Position numbers and translations under genes: made by a program. From positions 1 through 51,362 of the forward strand of contig WAOD01000053.1 of NCBI GenBank assembly GCA_015521465.1: 51,362 bases of DNA, written 5' to 3'. The DNA comes from DHVE2 group archaeon (GTDB lineage: Archaea; Thermoplasmatota; Thermoplasmata; Thermoplasmatales; Aciduliprofundaceae). Within the stretch, counting starts at the first letter, position 1, and each line of letters starts with the position of its first letter. A model generated the notes under the pieces. The model had not been told where the DNA came from. It saw only the letters and a list, made by a program, of their open reading frames with translations, and made no database searches. Below, one piece after another: positions 10,028 to 50,832 of the stretch.

Positions 10028-11311
10028 TTACTCTTTTCCCTTGAAATACTCTCTCATCACTTCGGCTTTGCTCCAGAGTTCGTCTATCTTTTTTGTTATG
10101 TCCTGCACTTTATCCACGTTTTCCAGGATTTTCTCCCTGATTTCCTTATCTTCTATTTCTACCTCTGCGGTGGCCGTAATCACCGCGAGGGGATTGCGAA
10201 TTTTATCTACCAATTGGGCAAAGTTTTCCATTGCTTCTACCATGTATGTGTATGCCACCTCTCTTCTCTCGTCAAGGCTTTTTGCCTCGATAAACATTGC
10301 TATGTTGTTAGCCGTGGTCTCCAAAACCGAGCGCTCATCTTCGTTCATCTCAACTTTACCCGTGTGAATCTCTATGTATCCTTTTGTTCCACCGTATATC
10401 ATTGGTAGTATTATGTATTCTTCCCCACCCGATTTTAGAACTATGCTCTTTTTCCAGTTCATCTCTTCAAATCTCACCTTGAGGTCTTTGATATATCCTT
10501 TTTTAACAGATATTTCTGTTTTTCCGTTATCGGTGTGTATGTTTATTTTTATTCCCTTAAATTCATCAATCTCCACAATTTTTTCCGCAACGCTCTCTAA
10601 CGTTTTTTTCTTGTCCTTCCCTTTCATAAGAATGGTATTTATTGTCACCGTGCTGAGAAGAATCCTGTTGTATCTCTCCATCATTTTTAACATTCTGTTC
10701 TGTGCTTCTAAGAGAACCGCCGCTTCCTTCATGGCGTAGTGCCCGTAAATTCCGGGTGCTATTTTCTTCACAATAATAAGGAAATTACCAAAAACAGTAT
10801 TCATTATGTTCATATTGCTATTCTTCACTTTAATTTTCATCAGTTCTTGGAGGGGGCAGCCGGGAGGGGGCATGGTAGAACTGTGCATTATTGGATAGCA
10901 GAGCTTTCCCACAATGTCTTCTTTTTTCATACCCACCAATTCCAGGTAGGCCTGATTAGCATCCACGATGACGTGCTCTGAAGTTATTATAAATGCGGGT
11001 ACCGGGGAGGTTAGAAATACCTGCTGCCTTATTTGCGGGTTTATCCAGTATCTGTTTTCTATGTTGTGTACGCAATATTTATTATCATCTATTATGGATA
11101 TTTTGCATTCTGCATACATGACGCCACTATTTGACCTGAATGCGGCCATTCCCTCGTAATTTCCATTTTTCTTTAATTCTTTGATTGCATTTTCATCAAC
11201 GAGTTCAAAATTTTTCCCGTATTCTTTTGTACATTCCCTAAAATCATCCAATAATCTGAAATCGTTTCCCAAGACGCAAAGTGCCCCCTTGCTGCATCCC
11301 TCTTTTTCCAT
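10028..11311 (-). CDS. PAS-GAF sensor protein with degenerate histidine-kinase dimerisation domain
   Basis: About 427 residues. A Cys-containing N-terminal region is followed by a PAS domain (about 105-200: SPVPAFIITSEHVIVDANQAYLELVGM), a GAF-like domain (about 225-340) and a final coiled HisKA-like segment. That segment reads LVDKIRNPLAVITATAEV, where a kinase would have SHEIRNPL, so Asp replaces the phospho-acceptor His. The protein ends after the helix pair, with no HATPase domain. It is therefore probably a signal-binding partner or dimerisation scaffold rather than a kinase. I prefer ATG 11311, 27 nt from a TATA box (TTAAATAG), over 11317. Divergent from hel308; first gene of a likely operon with the thioesterase, nitrilase and gyrB. 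Confidence 0.7.
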   Translation of the reverse strand: MEKEGCSKGALCVLGNDFRLLDDFRECTKEYGKNFELVDENAIKELKKNGNYEGMAAFRSNSGVMYAECKISIIDDNKYCVHNIENRYWINPQIRQQVFLTSPVPAFIITSEHVIVDANQAYLELVGMKKEDIVGKLCYPIMHSSTMPPPGCPLQELMKIKVKNSNMNIMNTVFGNFLIIVKKIAPGIYGHYAMKEAAVLLEAQNRMLKMMERYNRILLSTVTINTILMKGKDKKKTLESVAEKIVEIDEFKGIKINIHTDNGKTEISVKKGYIKDLKVRFEEMNWKKSIVLKSGGEEYIILPMIYGGTKGYIEIHTGKVEMNEDERSVLETTANNIAMFIEAKSLDERREVAYTYMVEAMENFAQLVDKIRNPLAVITATAEVEIEDKEIREKILENVDKVQDITKKIDELWSKAEVMREYFKGKE

Positions 11312-11334
11312 GCCCATGCATTACCGAAAGCATA

Positions 11335-16658: not shown

Positions 16659-16746
16659 GTGCTCCAAATTCTTATGCATTATGGTTTGTTATCATTGTTG
16701 ATAAACATTCTAGATTAAGTTATTTTGCCGAATCTTCTTGAAAAGG

Positions 16747-16757
16747 TATATATATAA
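16747..16757 (+). promoter_or_regulatory. TATA box of the response regulator-cheF operon
   Basis: TATATATATAA centred about 25 nt upstream of ATG 16777. This placement decides the start of the response regulator and predicts a leaderless transcript. Confidence 0.6.
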
Positions 16758-16776
16758 CGAGTTCATATCTTCTAAT

Positions 16777-17367
16777 ATGGGTTTTGCCGAGCCTTCTTTG
16801 AAGCTTCTCACCGTTGATGACGAGGAGGAAATAACCAAGTTAGTGCGTCTGTACTTTTCAAAAAGGGGTTACGATGTGCTCGAAGCTCATAATGGTGAAG
16901 AAGCAATAAAGATCATTGAAGAAAATCCTGATTTAGACGTAATTCTCCTTGATGTTATGCTTCCTGATACGAATGGTATTGAGATTCTGGAGCAGGTGCG
17001 TCCTTACTTACAGAACACCGTGATTATAATGGTTACGGGGGTTAATGACCTGGAAACAGTGGTTAATGCCATGAAGTTGGGGGCAGATGATTACGCCGTA
17101 AAGCCCTTCAGGTTTGGGGATTTAGAAGCAAAGATTGAGAGCGCTTTGAATAAGAAGAGCTTGAGAGAGATTAAAGAGGGCATGACCGCTAAAGAAGCAA
17201 TGGAGAAGTTAAAGCAGTTTAAGGATGGCAACGTGGTCATTACTTTTACCTTTGACGATATTGAAGAGCTCAACAAATTTACCGAGATGGCAAAAAACAC
17301 CGGTAAAGTTGATATATTGGATGTCAGGGTAGGAGACGAGTACGAGGTGAGCCTTAAGTTGAAATGA
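16777..17367 (+). CDS. Response regulator with receiver domain and novel C-terminal domain
   Basis: A two-component receiver protein of 196 residues. The receiver (about 8-125) has the acidic pair VDDEEE, the phospho-acceptor Asp in VILLDVMLPD, the switch Thr in MVTGVND and the Lys of AVKPF, so it looks phosphorylatable. About 70 residues follow (from LREIKEGMTAKEAMEKL to the end). They alternate helix and strand and are not a recognisable DNA-binding output domain. The ORF track starts at TTG 16738, but ATG 16777 fits the TATA box. A CheF gene follows after 16 nt, so this is probably a CheY-like component or adaptor in archaellum switching (inference). Confidence 0.85.
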   Translation: MGFAEPSLKLLTVDDEEEITKLVRLYFSKRGYDVLEAHNGEEAIKIIEENPDLDVILLDVMLPDTNGIEILEQVRPYLQNTVIIMVTGVNDLETVVNAMKLGADDYAVKPFRFGDLEAKIESALNKKSLREIKEGMTAKEAMEKLKQFKDGNVVITFTFDDIEELNKFTEMAKNTGKVDILDVRVGDEYEVSLKLK

Positions 17368-17383
17368 GCATGCGGGGATTTTA

Positions 17384-18229
17384 ATGATTGGGGACTTTGT
17401 TGGGGCGGTGGATTTCATACATCCCTACGGGCGGGGGTTTATGATTTACACAGATAAAGAGTGGGAGCATGGTAAGGTAAAGTTAGAGAGTGATTTTATA
17501 ACTATTTTTAACGGAAGTTACGTGAAGATACCCTTTGATTTCATAATTAGCATTGATAAGAGCATTACCCTGCCGGCAATCAGGGAGGGTCGGGCCCTGC
17601 TGTTGATAGAGTACATGGATGTTAAGAGAAGGGAGAACGTGTATCTTTTGCTATCTTCTGCTGAATCTTTTATGAGAAAGCTGCGTCTTGGAATCTTGGA
17701 GAGGATAACCTCTAAAACGAGAATAATGTTCAATTTTGAAGGTAAATGGTATTCCGGGCGAATGGTGGTTGGTGACAGCTGCGTGTCATTTATATCTAGC
17801 ATTACTTTGAGGATAGAAATCCCATGGATTGTTGGGGTAAGTCGCAAAAAGATGGAGTACGGGTTTAAAAAGATAGGTGTGATTTACATTGAGTACGATG
17901 ATGGTCATCTTAAACGTAACGTTATGGTTTTTGTCAATCCTGTCAAGCGAATGTTTTTCTGGAAACTCATGAATCAGCTTGTTGAGGATTATATTAACAC
18001 CAGCATAATGTCAAATATTAAGAATGTGGAGAAGATGATTCTACATCTTATTTCAAAGGGGTGGAGCTACGGGGATATAATGGCAAAGTTGGAGCTTACC
18101 AAGGATGAGATGGAGCGAATTGTTAATAATCTTGAAAAATACGGGGTAATAAGGAAAATAGTGGTTTTGAAATTAACGGATAGGGGAAAAAAGGTGCTTG
18201 ACGAGATTACAGTTTTAGATTTGCAATGA
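17384..18229 (+). CDS. cheF: Chemotaxis protein CheF-like
   Basis: 281 residues with the architecture of archaeal CheF, the adaptor that links CheY to the archaellum motor. Two similar beta-rich, PH-like halves are visible: about 1-105 with GKVKLESDFITIFNG and VKIPFDFIISID, and about 106-205 with EGKWYSGRMVVGDSCVSF and LRIEIPWIVGVSR. A helix and a C-terminal winged-helix segment (about 210-280: MILHLISKGWSYGDIMAKLEL, LTDRGKKVLDEI) follow. It is directly downstream of a response regulator, which supports a CheY-CheF unit. Its last 23 nt overlap the convergent HAD gene. The family call is from remembered architecture, not alignment. Confidence 0.7.
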   Translation: MIGDFVGAVDFIHPYGRGFMIYTDKEWEHGKVKLESDFITIFNGSYVKIPFDFIISIDKSITLPAIREGRALLLIEYMDVKRRENVYLLLSSAESFMRKLRLGILERITSKTRIMFNFEGKWYSGRMVVGDSCVSFISSITLRIEIPWIVGVSRKKMEYGFKKIGVIYIEYDDGHLKRNVMVFVNPVKRMFFWKLMNQLVEDYINTSIMSNIKNVEKMILHLISKGWSYGDIMAKLELTKDEMERIVNNLEKYGVIRKIVVLKLTDRGKKVLDEITVLDLQ

Positions 18230-47275: not shown

Positions 47276-47296
47276 TATCTATGTCTCCTTTTCTTG

Positions 47297-48013
47297 ATGA
47301 GGGTGCTGTTGAGATTTGAATCTGCGAGACATGTTTCGTTCAGCAAGATAAACAAGCACACAATACAGGGGATGTTGTACTCATTTCTTAAAGGCACACG
47401 GTACGAAGAATTGCACAGAAAGAGAGGATTCAAGTTTTTCTCATTTTCCGACATTTTTCCTGCGAATGATTTTTACCCGGGCAAGAAGAAAACGCTGATA
47501 GTGTCCTCGCCTAACTATGGCCTAATAAACACGTGGTATCATCAATTTAAGAGAAGTAGATATTTGTATCTGTCGGATGAGGCTTTCAAAATACACGAGG
47601 TGAAAAAATTCAGTTTGCCTCTGAAAAATGTTTTCGAGACTGGCAGTCCGGTTGTTCTTTACAAAGATAATACGCAGGGTACATACCTCTCTTTCAAGAG
47701 AAACGATGATTTGCGCTTTTTTCTCACTCGCCTGAAAGAAAATGCGGTCAAGAAATACAACGCTTTCTACGATGATGAATTTGAGATAGAAGAGCCGCTC
47801 TTCGATGTGATGCAATTCCGAAAAGAAGTTGTGGTAAATCTAAAAAAGGAAGAGGATGAATTTGCCATAATAGGCTCAATGTGGAAATCAATGAAAAAAT
47901 TATATGTTGATAAAGATAACAGAAAGTTTTATAAGTTTCTAATGGATACTGGTTTGGGGGAGAAGAACTCGCTGGGGTTTGGGTTTGTGAATCCCAAGAA
48001 GGAGGGAAAGTGA
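47297..48013 (+). CDS. cas6: CRISPR-associated endoribonuclease Cas6
   Basis: Cuts the pre-crRNA repeat. 238 residues with a RAMP fold: N-terminal RVLLRFESARHVSFSKINKHTIQGMLYSFL, middle strands KTLIVSSPNYGLI, and the diagnostic C-terminal glycine-rich loop GLGEKNSLGFGFV. The His residues in the first 25 positions are candidate catalytic residues. First gene of a type I-B-like operon; cas8b follows with a 3-nt overlap. Confidence 0.92.
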   Translation: MRVLLRFESARHVSFSKINKHTIQGMLYSFLKGTRYEELHRKRGFKFFSFSDIFPANDFYPGKKKTLIVSSPNYGLINTWYHQFKRSRYLYLSDEAFKIHEVKKFSLPLKNVFETGSPVVLYKDNTQGTYLSFKRNDDLRFFLTRLKENAVKKYNAFYDDEFEIEEPLFDVMQFRKEVVVNLKKEEDEFAIIGSMWKSMKKLYVDKDNRKFYKFLMDTGLGEKNSLGFGFVNPKKEGK

Positions 48014-49845
48014 TGCTTAGGGAGATATATGAAATAGGAAAAACAATCGTTGAAGAGGGAAAAATTAAACCTGAGGAGCAGTTTGTAGACAAAGCCAAAT
48101 TGAATAAGAAAACTAAATTTGTTCTATATATAGTGTTTAAGGTTGAAAATGATGAGTTTAAATATGAAACAATAGATGTGGAAGAATATGAAGAGAGAAA
48201 AGGAGTAAGTGCATTGTACAAAAGAGGTAGTTCGCGAGGAACAGATATTACTCCTTCTTCAATAATTACAAAAGATGTTGTCAAAACATTTGAAAACAAA
48301 ATATTGTTGTGGTTTAAAAATAATAAGGAGGAAGATGAACTCTTCAAGAATATATATATGGCAATACTTGACGATAAAGAGAAAATAGAAGATGAGCTTT
48401 CGAAAAAATACGAGAGTATTGAAAAAGCTAACCGTCAGAATGTTCTGCTAACTCTTAAAATAATAGATGGTGATAAAAAATATATGAGTGATTATGAGAT
48501 TTTTAGGAAAAAACTTCTGGAAAACTCAAAGCAGAAGTATTATTATCTTTCAAGTATGGGTGAATCCAAGGGCGAGGGTACATGCTATCTCTGTGGAAAA
48601 CAAAAGGAAGTGTACGGCTTTGTTCTCCCCGCGTTTGGTTTTTCATTCTCAACGGCGGATAAGCCAGGATTTGTTCCGGGATTTAATCAAGAATGGATGT
48701 GGAAGGAGATACCCATATGCGAAGATTGCGCAGTCACTCTGGAAGTGGGTAAGAAGTATTTAGATGAGAATTTATCTTACGGGTTTTATGGTAACAAATA
48801 CTATGTGATTCCTCAAGTAGTTCTCCCAGAAAAATCAAAGGAAGTTTTATCTGAGATAATGGATACTATTGAAAGGTATAAGGGTAAAGGATATCAGCAG
48901 GGACTCGTTGCAGATGAAGACGATATGGTTGATATTGCAATGGATATGGGTAATATTTTAAAGCTCACATTTATTTTTTATCAATCTAAGCAGAGCAGAA
49001 TGTTGGTGTTAAATTATATTGAGAATGTGCTTCCTTCGCACATGCGACAAATTTATGAGGCAGAGAAAAATGTAAAATCAGTTTATGATGAAGATTTTGT
49101 AAAATCATTGTTTGGTGAAAATGCAGAAGGCGATTTTGTGGCTTATCGCAAGAACAAGATGAAAAATGAGAAGAGTGGAATGAACAACTGGTACATTGCA
49201 TTTGGGAGGAGATTCTTCTCTGGAAATAAAGAGTTTCTAAACTATGTGGGTAATGTACTCTCTGGAAAGCCAATTGATAGGAGGTACTTAATTGCAAGAT
49301 TTTTAGATGCGTTCCGGAAAGAATTCAAAAATGGAAATGATTTTGCATTTAAAATGAGGGCAGTAGAAGCAATGATGATTTACGATTTCTTAAGAGAGAT
49401 GAATTTGATAAGAGGTGAGTTTATGACAGAAGAAAGTGAAGAAAAGATGAAAATAAGCACAGAAAAAATAGAGGAATTTTTTGAGGAGAGAAAGAGCACA
49501 TTCGCAAGCGACGAAGCAAAGGCCGCGTTTTTAGTGGGCGCTTTGGTGAACTATGTACTGCAAATTCAGCGTAAAGAACGGGGTTTAGGATATGGTGACG
49601 AACCGTTTCGAGCAAAGCTCTATGGATTGAATATAGACGAGAAAAAATTAAGGAAAATATTCACCGAAGCCGTGGAAAAACTTAGTGAATACAAGAGAGG
49701 AAGTAAAATAGAGAGTGTAGCAGCAGATTATCTCAGCAGAGCGGGCAATGGCTGGAAGATGAACAGAGATGACATAAGTTATTACTTCTCTCTGGGCTTA
49801 GTTTTAGGAGCAAATCTTTTCTGGGAAAAAGAAGAAAATAATTAA
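48013..49845 (+). CDS. cas8b: Type I-B CRISPR large subunit Cas8b (Csh1/TM1802-like)
   Basis: Large subunit of the Cascade complex, expected to recognise the PAM. 610 residues. A zinc-finger-like CYLCGKQKEVYG near residue 195 pairs with IPICEDCAVTLEVGKKYL near 235. The TM1802-type helical C-terminus follows (YLIARFLDAFRKEF, AAFLVGALVNYVLQIQRKERG, YYFSLGLVLGANLF). GGAGGG is 6 nt before ATG 48013. The sequence has few strong motifs, as usual for Cas8; context strongly supports the call. Confidence 0.88.
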   Translation: MLREIYEIGKTIVEEGKIKPEEQFVDKAKLNKKTKFVLYIVFKVENDEFKYETIDVEEYEERKGVSALYKRGSSRGTDITPSSIITKDVVKTFENKILLWFKNNKEEDELFKNIYMAILDDKEKIEDELSKKYESIEKANRQNVLLTLKIIDGDKKYMSDYEIFRKKLLENSKQKYYYLSSMGESKGEGTCYLCGKQKEVYGFVLPAFGFSFSTADKPGFVPGFNQEWMWKEIPICEDCAVTLEVGKKYLDENLSYGFYGNKYYVIPQVVLPEKSKEVLSEIMDTIERYKGKGYQQGLVADEDDMVDIAMDMGNILKLTFIFYQSKQSRMLVLNYIENVLPSHMRQIYEAEKNVKSVYDEDFVKSLFGENAEGDFVAYRKNKMKNEKSGMNNWYIAFGRRFFSGNKEFLNYVGNVLSGKPIDRRYLIARFLDAFRKEFKNGNDFAFKMRAVEAMMIYDFLREMNLIRGEFMTEESEEKMKISTEKIEEFFEERKSTFASDEAKAAFLVGALVNYVLQIQRKERGLGYGDEPFRAKLYGLNIDEKKLRKIFTEAVEKLSEYKRGSKIESVAADYLSRAGNGWKMNRDDISYYFSLGLVLGANLFWEKEENN

Positions 49846-49857
49846 GGAGGTGAAAAA

Positions 49858-50832
49858 ATGGTAGTGAATAAAAGATCTGAGATAGTGTTTCTCTATGATA
49901 TAAAGGATGCAAACCCGAACGGCGATCCTCTGGAAGAGAACAAGCCGAGGATAGACGAAGATACCGAGACAAACATAGTGACAGATGTGAGATTGAAGAG
50001 GACTATAAGAGATTATTTGCACGATTACAAAGGATACAATGGAAAGAATGGTAAGGATATATTTGTTAGGGAAATAAAAGATGAAGAAGGAAAAATCCAA
50101 GATGCAAAAGCAAGAGCCAAGGATTTTGAAAACGATCCTGAGAGAATATTAAGCGAATGTATTGATGTGCGCCTCTTCGGAGGAACGATACCAATAACTA
50201 TTCTTAAGAAAAATAAGAAGGGAGAAGACAAGGAGGCAGGAAGTTCAATAACCCTAACCGGTCCGGTACAGTTCCGTTTTGGGCGCTCACTTCATAGGGT
50301 TGAGATGAAACACATAAAAGGAACCGGTGCGTTTGCATCTGGGGAAGGGAAAGAGAAAAAAACATTTAGAGAGGAGTATATTCTCCCGTATTCTCTAATA
50401 GCCTTTTATGGTATTGTTAATGAGAACAGTGCAAAGTACACAAATTTGACCGATGAAGATGTAGATGAGATGTTGGAGGCCATGTGGAATGGAACAAAGA
50501 ATCTGGTTACGAGAACAAAGGTTGGCCAAATGCCTAGGTTTTTGCTCAGGGTAATTTACAAGGAGGACAACTATCACATAGGTGATTTAGATAAGAAGAT
50601 ATATCTTCTCAAGTCTAAGGACGATAAGGAACTGAGACATATAAGCGATTTTAAGATAGATTTGACTGCACTCCACGAAGCGCTTATGCGAGAGAAGGAT
50701 AAAATTGAAAAGGTTGAGATTGAGGCAAATGAAGATGCAGTATTCCAAATAGGCAGTGAAGATTATAAAGGAAGAGAAGTAATAAATGGCTTTAAAGATG
50801 TCAATGGTGTTCTAAAGGAATTGGACAGGTGA
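49858..50832 (+). CDS. cas7: Type I-B Cascade backbone Cas7 (Csh2-like)
   Basis: Forms the helical crRNA-binding backbone. 324 residues of the Csh2/Cst2 RAMP group: SEIVFLYDIKDANPNGDPLEENKPRID at the N-terminus, TDVRLKRTIRDYL, CIDVRLFGGTIPI and SSITLTGPVQFRFGRSLHRVE. GGAGGTGA 6 nt before the ATG gives strong translation, as expected for the most abundant subunit. Confidence 0.94.
   Translation: MVVNKRSEIVFLYDIKDANPNGDPLEENKPRIDEDTETNIVTDVRLKRTIRDYLHDYKGYNGKNGKDIFVREIKDEEGKIQDAKARAKDFENDPERILSECIDVRLFGGTIPITILKKNKKGEDKEAGSSITLTGPVQFRFGRSLHRVEMKHIKGTGAFASGEGKEKKTFREEYILPYSLIAFYGIVNENSAKYTNLTDEDVDEMLEAMWNGTKNLVTRTKVGQMPRFLLRVIYKEDNYHIGDLDKKIYLLKSKDDKELRHISDFKIDLTALHEALMREKDKIEKVEIEANEDAVFQIGSEDYKGREVINGFKDVNGVLKELDR

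Follow-up and report, generated by a model that had tools for sequence, protein, structure and literature searches.

What does a response regulator (RR) with an extra C-terminal domain do beside the gene of a CheF-like adaptor, where no chemotaxis genes are in sight? This question is raised by two neighboring genes in the window, by which we mean the whole stretch of archaeal DNA analyzed here (51,362 nt), from a deep-sea-vent archaeon. Elsewhere, CheF passes the signal to reverse to the archaeal swimming motor. Because the named relatives of the gene pair are DHVE2 group, Aciduliprofundum, and unclassified Thermoplasmata/Euryarchaeota records only, we assigned the window to the DHVE2/Aciduliprofundum family; its genome assembly comprises 1.5 Mb in 108 contigs.

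Comparing the locus with its homologues, we found that the RR gene lies directly upstream of the CheF-family gene in all 14 loci where both genes are readable, in the same order and with the same tail on the RR, the spacing ranging from a 4-nt overlap to a 17-nt gap, so the pairing is not due to chance. The CheF-like protein is present in 15 of the order's 117 genomes, all within the DHVE2/Aciduliprofundum family; the fifteenth locus is a contig-end fragment and was left out of the readable pairs. Conserved pairing in other genomes had been named as a check in the initial annotation, which was made from the sequence alone and had proposed a shared transcript across 16 nt. This proposal agrees with our results, since 16 nt separate the stop codon of the RR from the start of the CheF-family open reading frame in the window, and the single promoter, the short gap, and the conserved adjacency together support co-transcription. 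The beginning of the unit had to be moved: 16747, where it had been placed, has no start codon, and a TATA box begins there. A BRE/TATA element comparable to that of the window lies about 30 nt ahead of the RR ATG in 13 of 14 homologous loci, which sets the RR start at 16777 (Table 1). Judged by the sequence, the RR-CheF transcript is probably leaderless.

Table 1. Features of the RR-CheF locus, in window coordinates.
Feature	Position	Strand	Basis
BRE-like AAAAGG and TATA box (TATATATATAA)	16741..16757	+	About 25-30 nt upstream of RR start; sequence and homologous loci
Response regulator REC-AcidOD1, 196 aa	16777..17367	+	Sequence, Pfam, homologue alignment
Receiver domain	16807..17136	+	D14, D15, D59, K109 invariant
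C-terminal AcidOD1 domain	17149..17364	+	Alpha-beta-alpha-beta-beta fold predicted, pLDDT 77; weak TusA/SirA/Alba likeness; PMC5847659
CheF-family adaptor, 281 aa	17384..18229	+	Profile-profile, fold, and Pfam comparison
First PH-like domain, CheF-family protein	17396..17716	+	AlphaFold secondary structure; Foldseek to CheF and tandem-PH proteins
Second PH-like domain, CheF-family protein	17720..17932	+	AlphaFold secondary structure; Foldseek
C-terminal helical/winged-helix-like domain, equivalent of the CheY-P-binding domain of CheF	17939..18226	+	Profile matches 7ovp residues 253-332 and CheF C-terminal domain 7od9

The receiver is intact, as initially described: residues 11-120 of the RR match Pfam Response_reg (E 6.8e-28), and the phosphorylation residues listed in Table 1 are invariant among the 14 RR homologues, with T or S at position 87. 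In keeping all these residues, and in the position of its gene next to cheF, the DHVE2 RR resembles CheY of archaeal chemotaxis, but it differs from CheY in several other respects. It is not a stand-alone receiver, carrying instead a conserved tail of 72 residues (125-196; about 70 extra residues had been noted before), its closest PDB matches are NtrC-type receivers, and it occurs without the CheA that would phosphorylate a CheY, as judged by the CheW-domain search described below. Moreover, in a tree with small CheY sampling (three sequences), a branch with 100/100 support parts the DHVE2 RRs, the other REC-AcidOD1 proteins, and other kinase-linked RRs from the CheY and CheB of che loci, and the corresponding split in a larger tree has 90/85 support. 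Forcing the DHVE2 RRs together with CheY comes at a cost of 14.3 log units (p-AU 0.0375). With three CheYs in the tree, these results are suggestive of a receiver separate from CheY.

The second protein is a CheF-family protein along its whole length, in line with the initial suggestion of a CheF-like partner. In an hhalign comparison, the DHVE2 family matches four CheFs from che loci with a probability of 95.9 and an E of 5.8e-9 over 246 columns, covering the first PH domain through the end of the C-terminal domain. An AlphaFold model (pLDDT 79) shows a pair of PH-like domains followed by a helical C-terminal domain, and its top Foldseek match in the PDB is the CheF crystal structure 7ovp (E 9.6e-12), with tandem-PH proteins next; its last 26 residues have a pLDDT below 50, and the equivalent of the CheY-contacting alpha-8 is not confidently modeled. 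At the sequence level, the family profile also extends to the C-terminal part of CheF in 7ovp and 7od9. The CheF Pfam profile, failure to match which had been named as grounds for rejecting the CheF reading, gives a divided answer: the window's protein alone scores 13.8 bits, below the cutoff of 25, whereas the orthologue in genome G014 passes with 28.6 bits in a genome search and 10 of the 14 family members match PF04283 at E up to 1 (best 4.1e-6). Decisive for the assignment are the profile-profile and fold comparisons. A PDB search with the single sequence found winged helix-turn-helix (wHTH) proteins only, and CheF was matched once a profile was used. The C-terminal domain of CheF itself resembles wHTH domains by sequence, which accounts for such matches here. 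Searching the other orders of the phylum with the CheF-family alignment gave mostly isolated wHTH matches rather than new CheFs.

The DHVE2 protein shares with CheF (DUF439, PF04283) of euryarchaeal che loci the two N-terminal PH-like domains, the C-terminal domain that binds CheY in known CheF, the frequent position of the gene next to a receiver-domain gene, and an organism that has ArlCDE (PMC9126983, PMC2666748). In contrast to these CheFs, it is shorter (281 aa), diverged, and weak against the Pfam model, its organism lacks cheA and cheW, and its partner is no canonical CheY. The four CheFs used for comparison come from other Thermoplasmatota genomes with bona fide CheF, and their genes sit in che loci with homologues of CheA, CheB, CheC, CheD, CheR, and CheY, as read from the translations, one of these loci additionally having archaellum genes, CheW, and MCP. 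A compact arl-che cluster in a single locus was seen in another Thermoplasmatota family (L118, G167 contig C14), holding homologues of archaellins, ArlCDE-like proteins, ArlH, CheC, CheA, CheY, CheF, CheW, MCP, ArlI, and ArlJ.

The lack of chemotaxis genes goes further than the missing cheA, cheB, and cheR noted initially around the pair. No CheW-domain protein was found across the order's 117 genomes, including that of the window, with control genomes positive, and this excludes CheW and CheA at the sensitivity of the search. A tie between CheF and che loci has been described (PMC2666748), but the presence of a che locus or of che genes in the genome is usual and not strictly defining, since Methanocaldococcus jannaschii, the only earlier exception reported in that study, has CheF without che genes. 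Unlike M. jannaschii, where no response-regulator match was found, DHVE2 has an adjacent and apparently co-transcribed RR. Acid mine drainage Thermoplasmata with archaella have been reported to be motile yet without chemotaxis genes (PMC3750248).

The ArlCDE switch proteins are present in the genome of the window, which encodes a fused ArlC-ArlDE (a FlaC_arch and Arch_fla_DE protein), archaellins, and ArlH, ArlI, and ArlJ, the last three assigned via matches to KaiC, T2SSE, and T2SSF within a single operon. Archaellins and ArlDE are found in 17 of the 18 family genomes. Archaellum genes accompany the CheF-like gene in all 15 genomes that have it, and none of the non-archaellated families of the order has a CheF-like gene; this co-occurrence fits a link to the archaellum, all positive genomes belonging to one clade and not being countable as independent events. 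Archaellated relatives in family f6 of the order have neither the RR nor the CheF-like gene, showing that an archaellum does not need the module, and the pair lies outside the archaellum locus in the loci read, so that its link to the motor is one of homology and co-occurrence only.

The genome of the window encodes two RRs in total, and three of its six HATPase matches are histidine-kinase-type genes. Two complete family genomes have two large HisKA-type kinases each, of 1042 to 1572 aa, and those scanned, as well as the large one in the window's genome, have a multi-PAS/GAF architecture and no transmembrane helices by hydropathy. No intact kinase adjoins the pair in the window's genome. We weighed a PAS/GAF/HisKA-like protein at 10028-11317 (-) as a possible partner kinase but rejected it, as it has no HATPase match and its H-box histidine appears by eye to be D. 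This protein looks like either a histidine kinase that has degenerated or a remnant of docking/phosphatase-like type. The only other RR of the genome, in L111:3434-6562 (G000 contig C1), comes after three RecA/KaiC-like ATPase genes and lies close to an archaellin-like gene; it is a second candidate for a signaling link to a surface filament.

The tail of the RR is AcidOD1, matched to the census of Galperin and co-workers by length, position, and lineage rather than by comparison of sequences. That 2018 census lists REC-AcidOD1, with a domain of 70 aa, for two proteins from Aciduliprofundum only, and CheF goes unmentioned in its main text (PMC5847659). The window's RR has the same architecture, a receiver followed by a domain of about 70 aa, in the Aciduliprofundum lineage, from which the example protein of the census also comes. 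Residues 125-196 match no Pfam family above its cutoff, and a PDB sequence search with the tail gave nothing usable. DNA-binding output domains of the OmpR, NtrC, and NarL types were sought in the tail and none matched; thus, the tail matches no known DNA-binding domain. A match to a common one had been named as grounds for rejecting the initial interpretation. Foldseek with the tail model returned only weak matches of the TusA/SirA/IF3-C/Alba-like kind (E 0.026 or worse), and the predicted fold may loosely be classed as TusA/SirA/Alba-like. A profile built from the 14 tails has strong matches within the family only and weaker ones in six further genomes from the phylum (best E 3.4e-7), the weaker matches including five plain receivers with an AcidOD1 tail and one truncated receiver; the weak match L134 is no receiver. 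AcidOD1 tails outside DHVE2 have a common core, F-x-F...N-x-F...V-x-I-x-D. In contrast to the census, the domain is now seen in RRs of further Thermoplasmatota, and those of the Aciduliprofundum group are tied to CheF. AcidOD1 is thus more widespread than the census indicates and could be made a Pfam family. The REC-AcidOD1 regulators of other Thermoplasmatota, outside Aciduliprofundum, are at loci L136-L139 and L141.

We consider it fairly probable that the RR-CheF pair is a rewired archaellum output module, in which a kinase-type RR has replaced CheY. As there is no CheA, the receiver would presumably be phosphorylated by the cell's soluble multi-PAS/GAF HisKA kinases, the natural candidates for phosphodonors of the RR. 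The phospho-receiver would then bind the C-terminal domain of the CheF-family protein, a domain which in CheF binds CheY-P using alpha-5 and alpha-6 from one subunit together with alpha-8 from its partner (PMC9126983). The two PH-like domains, which in CheF are thought to sit on ArlCDE (PMC9126983), would sit on the ArlCDE switch ring, and the CheF-bound phospho-receiver would shift the motor. The signal may thus pass from a soluble PAS/GAF histidine kinase to REC-AcidOD1, on to CheF, and finally to the ArlCDE motor; here we infer the acting kinase, the binding of the phospho-receiver to CheF, and the action of CheF on the motor. The chances are about even that this amounts to a CheA-free archaellum switch, with soluble PAS/GAF kinases setting motor direction via REC-AcidOD1 in the place of CheY and with no chemoreceptor array.

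The tail is not the striking part of the locus; that is the conservation of CheF in the absence of CheA, next to an RR distinct from CheY. This combination suggests that some archaellated, che-less archaea do steer, and do so via ordinary two-component kinases. It provides a small, testable case of a motor input swapped between signaling systems and attaches a likely function to the AcidOD1 regulators, which previously had none. We found no description of an RR-AcidOD1/CheF module in the literature searched, most subscription papers lying outside that search, and our search for literature on DHVE2 motility found no paper.

The initial annotation had favored another role for the tail, that of a dedicated module for docking to CheF or to the motor. 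Such a role could draw on the retention of the tail alongside CheF in 14 of 14 DHVE2 loci and on the DHVE2 tails mostly having LTAE at the start and GEEYEV near the end, motifs absent from other AcidOD1 tails. However, histidine kinase genes are adjacent or in the same cluster at most REC-AcidOD1 loci outside DHVE2, and the genomes concerned are absent from the CheF matches (apparently in the same draw of 390 genomes). The presence of AcidOD1 on kinase-adjacent RRs in genomes without CheF matches points to a domain of general use in kinase-type RRs, for output or interaction. Furthermore, in the solved complex of CheY with CheF, the receiver touches CheF through the face that flanks the phosphorylation site, and no appended domain makes the contact (PMC9126983). 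Thus, we regard a docking module as unlikely and the tail as most likely a general interaction or dimerization domain of REC-AcidOD1 regulators that is not specific to CheF; a specialization of the DHVE2 tails for CheF is possible but not needed.

Two further readings concern the target of the pair. The RR might signal to a PH-PH-wHTH protein that binds DNA via its winged helix, making the pair a transcription regulator. The C-terminal domain does match wHTH families, PF24409 in 14 of 14 members, and MarR/Lrp-type structures match it slightly better by sequence than CheF does, but such matches also arise with the C-terminal domain of CheF, which is a CheY-P-binding domain (PMC9126983), and the match along the whole length is CheF. 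The helix at the DNA-recognition position, moreover, has a net charge of -1 to -4 in 14 of 14 homologues, which argues against DNA binding by this domain, and it is likewise acidic in three of the four che-locus CheFs. We therefore hold this reading to be improbable, about as much so as the docking module. Slightly less likely still is a CheF that was kept but repurposed for another type IV pilus-like machine or some other cellular target; in its favor, the pair is not beside archaellum genes in the loci read, and the family has a second archaellin/ArlDE set as well as a half-CheF paralogue beside queD/queC. Against such repurposing stand the ArlDE proteins of the switch to which CheF docks, nearly universal in the family, and the confinement of the CheF-like gene to archaellated genomes, both described above. 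The rewired archaellum output module remains our preferred reading of the pair.

The half-CheF paralogue has about 190-200 aa, with one PH-like domain and a C-terminal wHTH-like domain, and is found across the family. In the loci read it adjoins queD-like (and queC-like) genes, its coordinates being L097:3792-4361 (- strand; G000 contig C94), L101:4683-5258, L102:18043-18609, L106:7111-7710, and L030:1111-1722. At the end of the window itself, 47294-50832 (+) holds CRISPR genes, namely, cas6, a TM1802-type gene, and cas7, as identified by Pfam matches.
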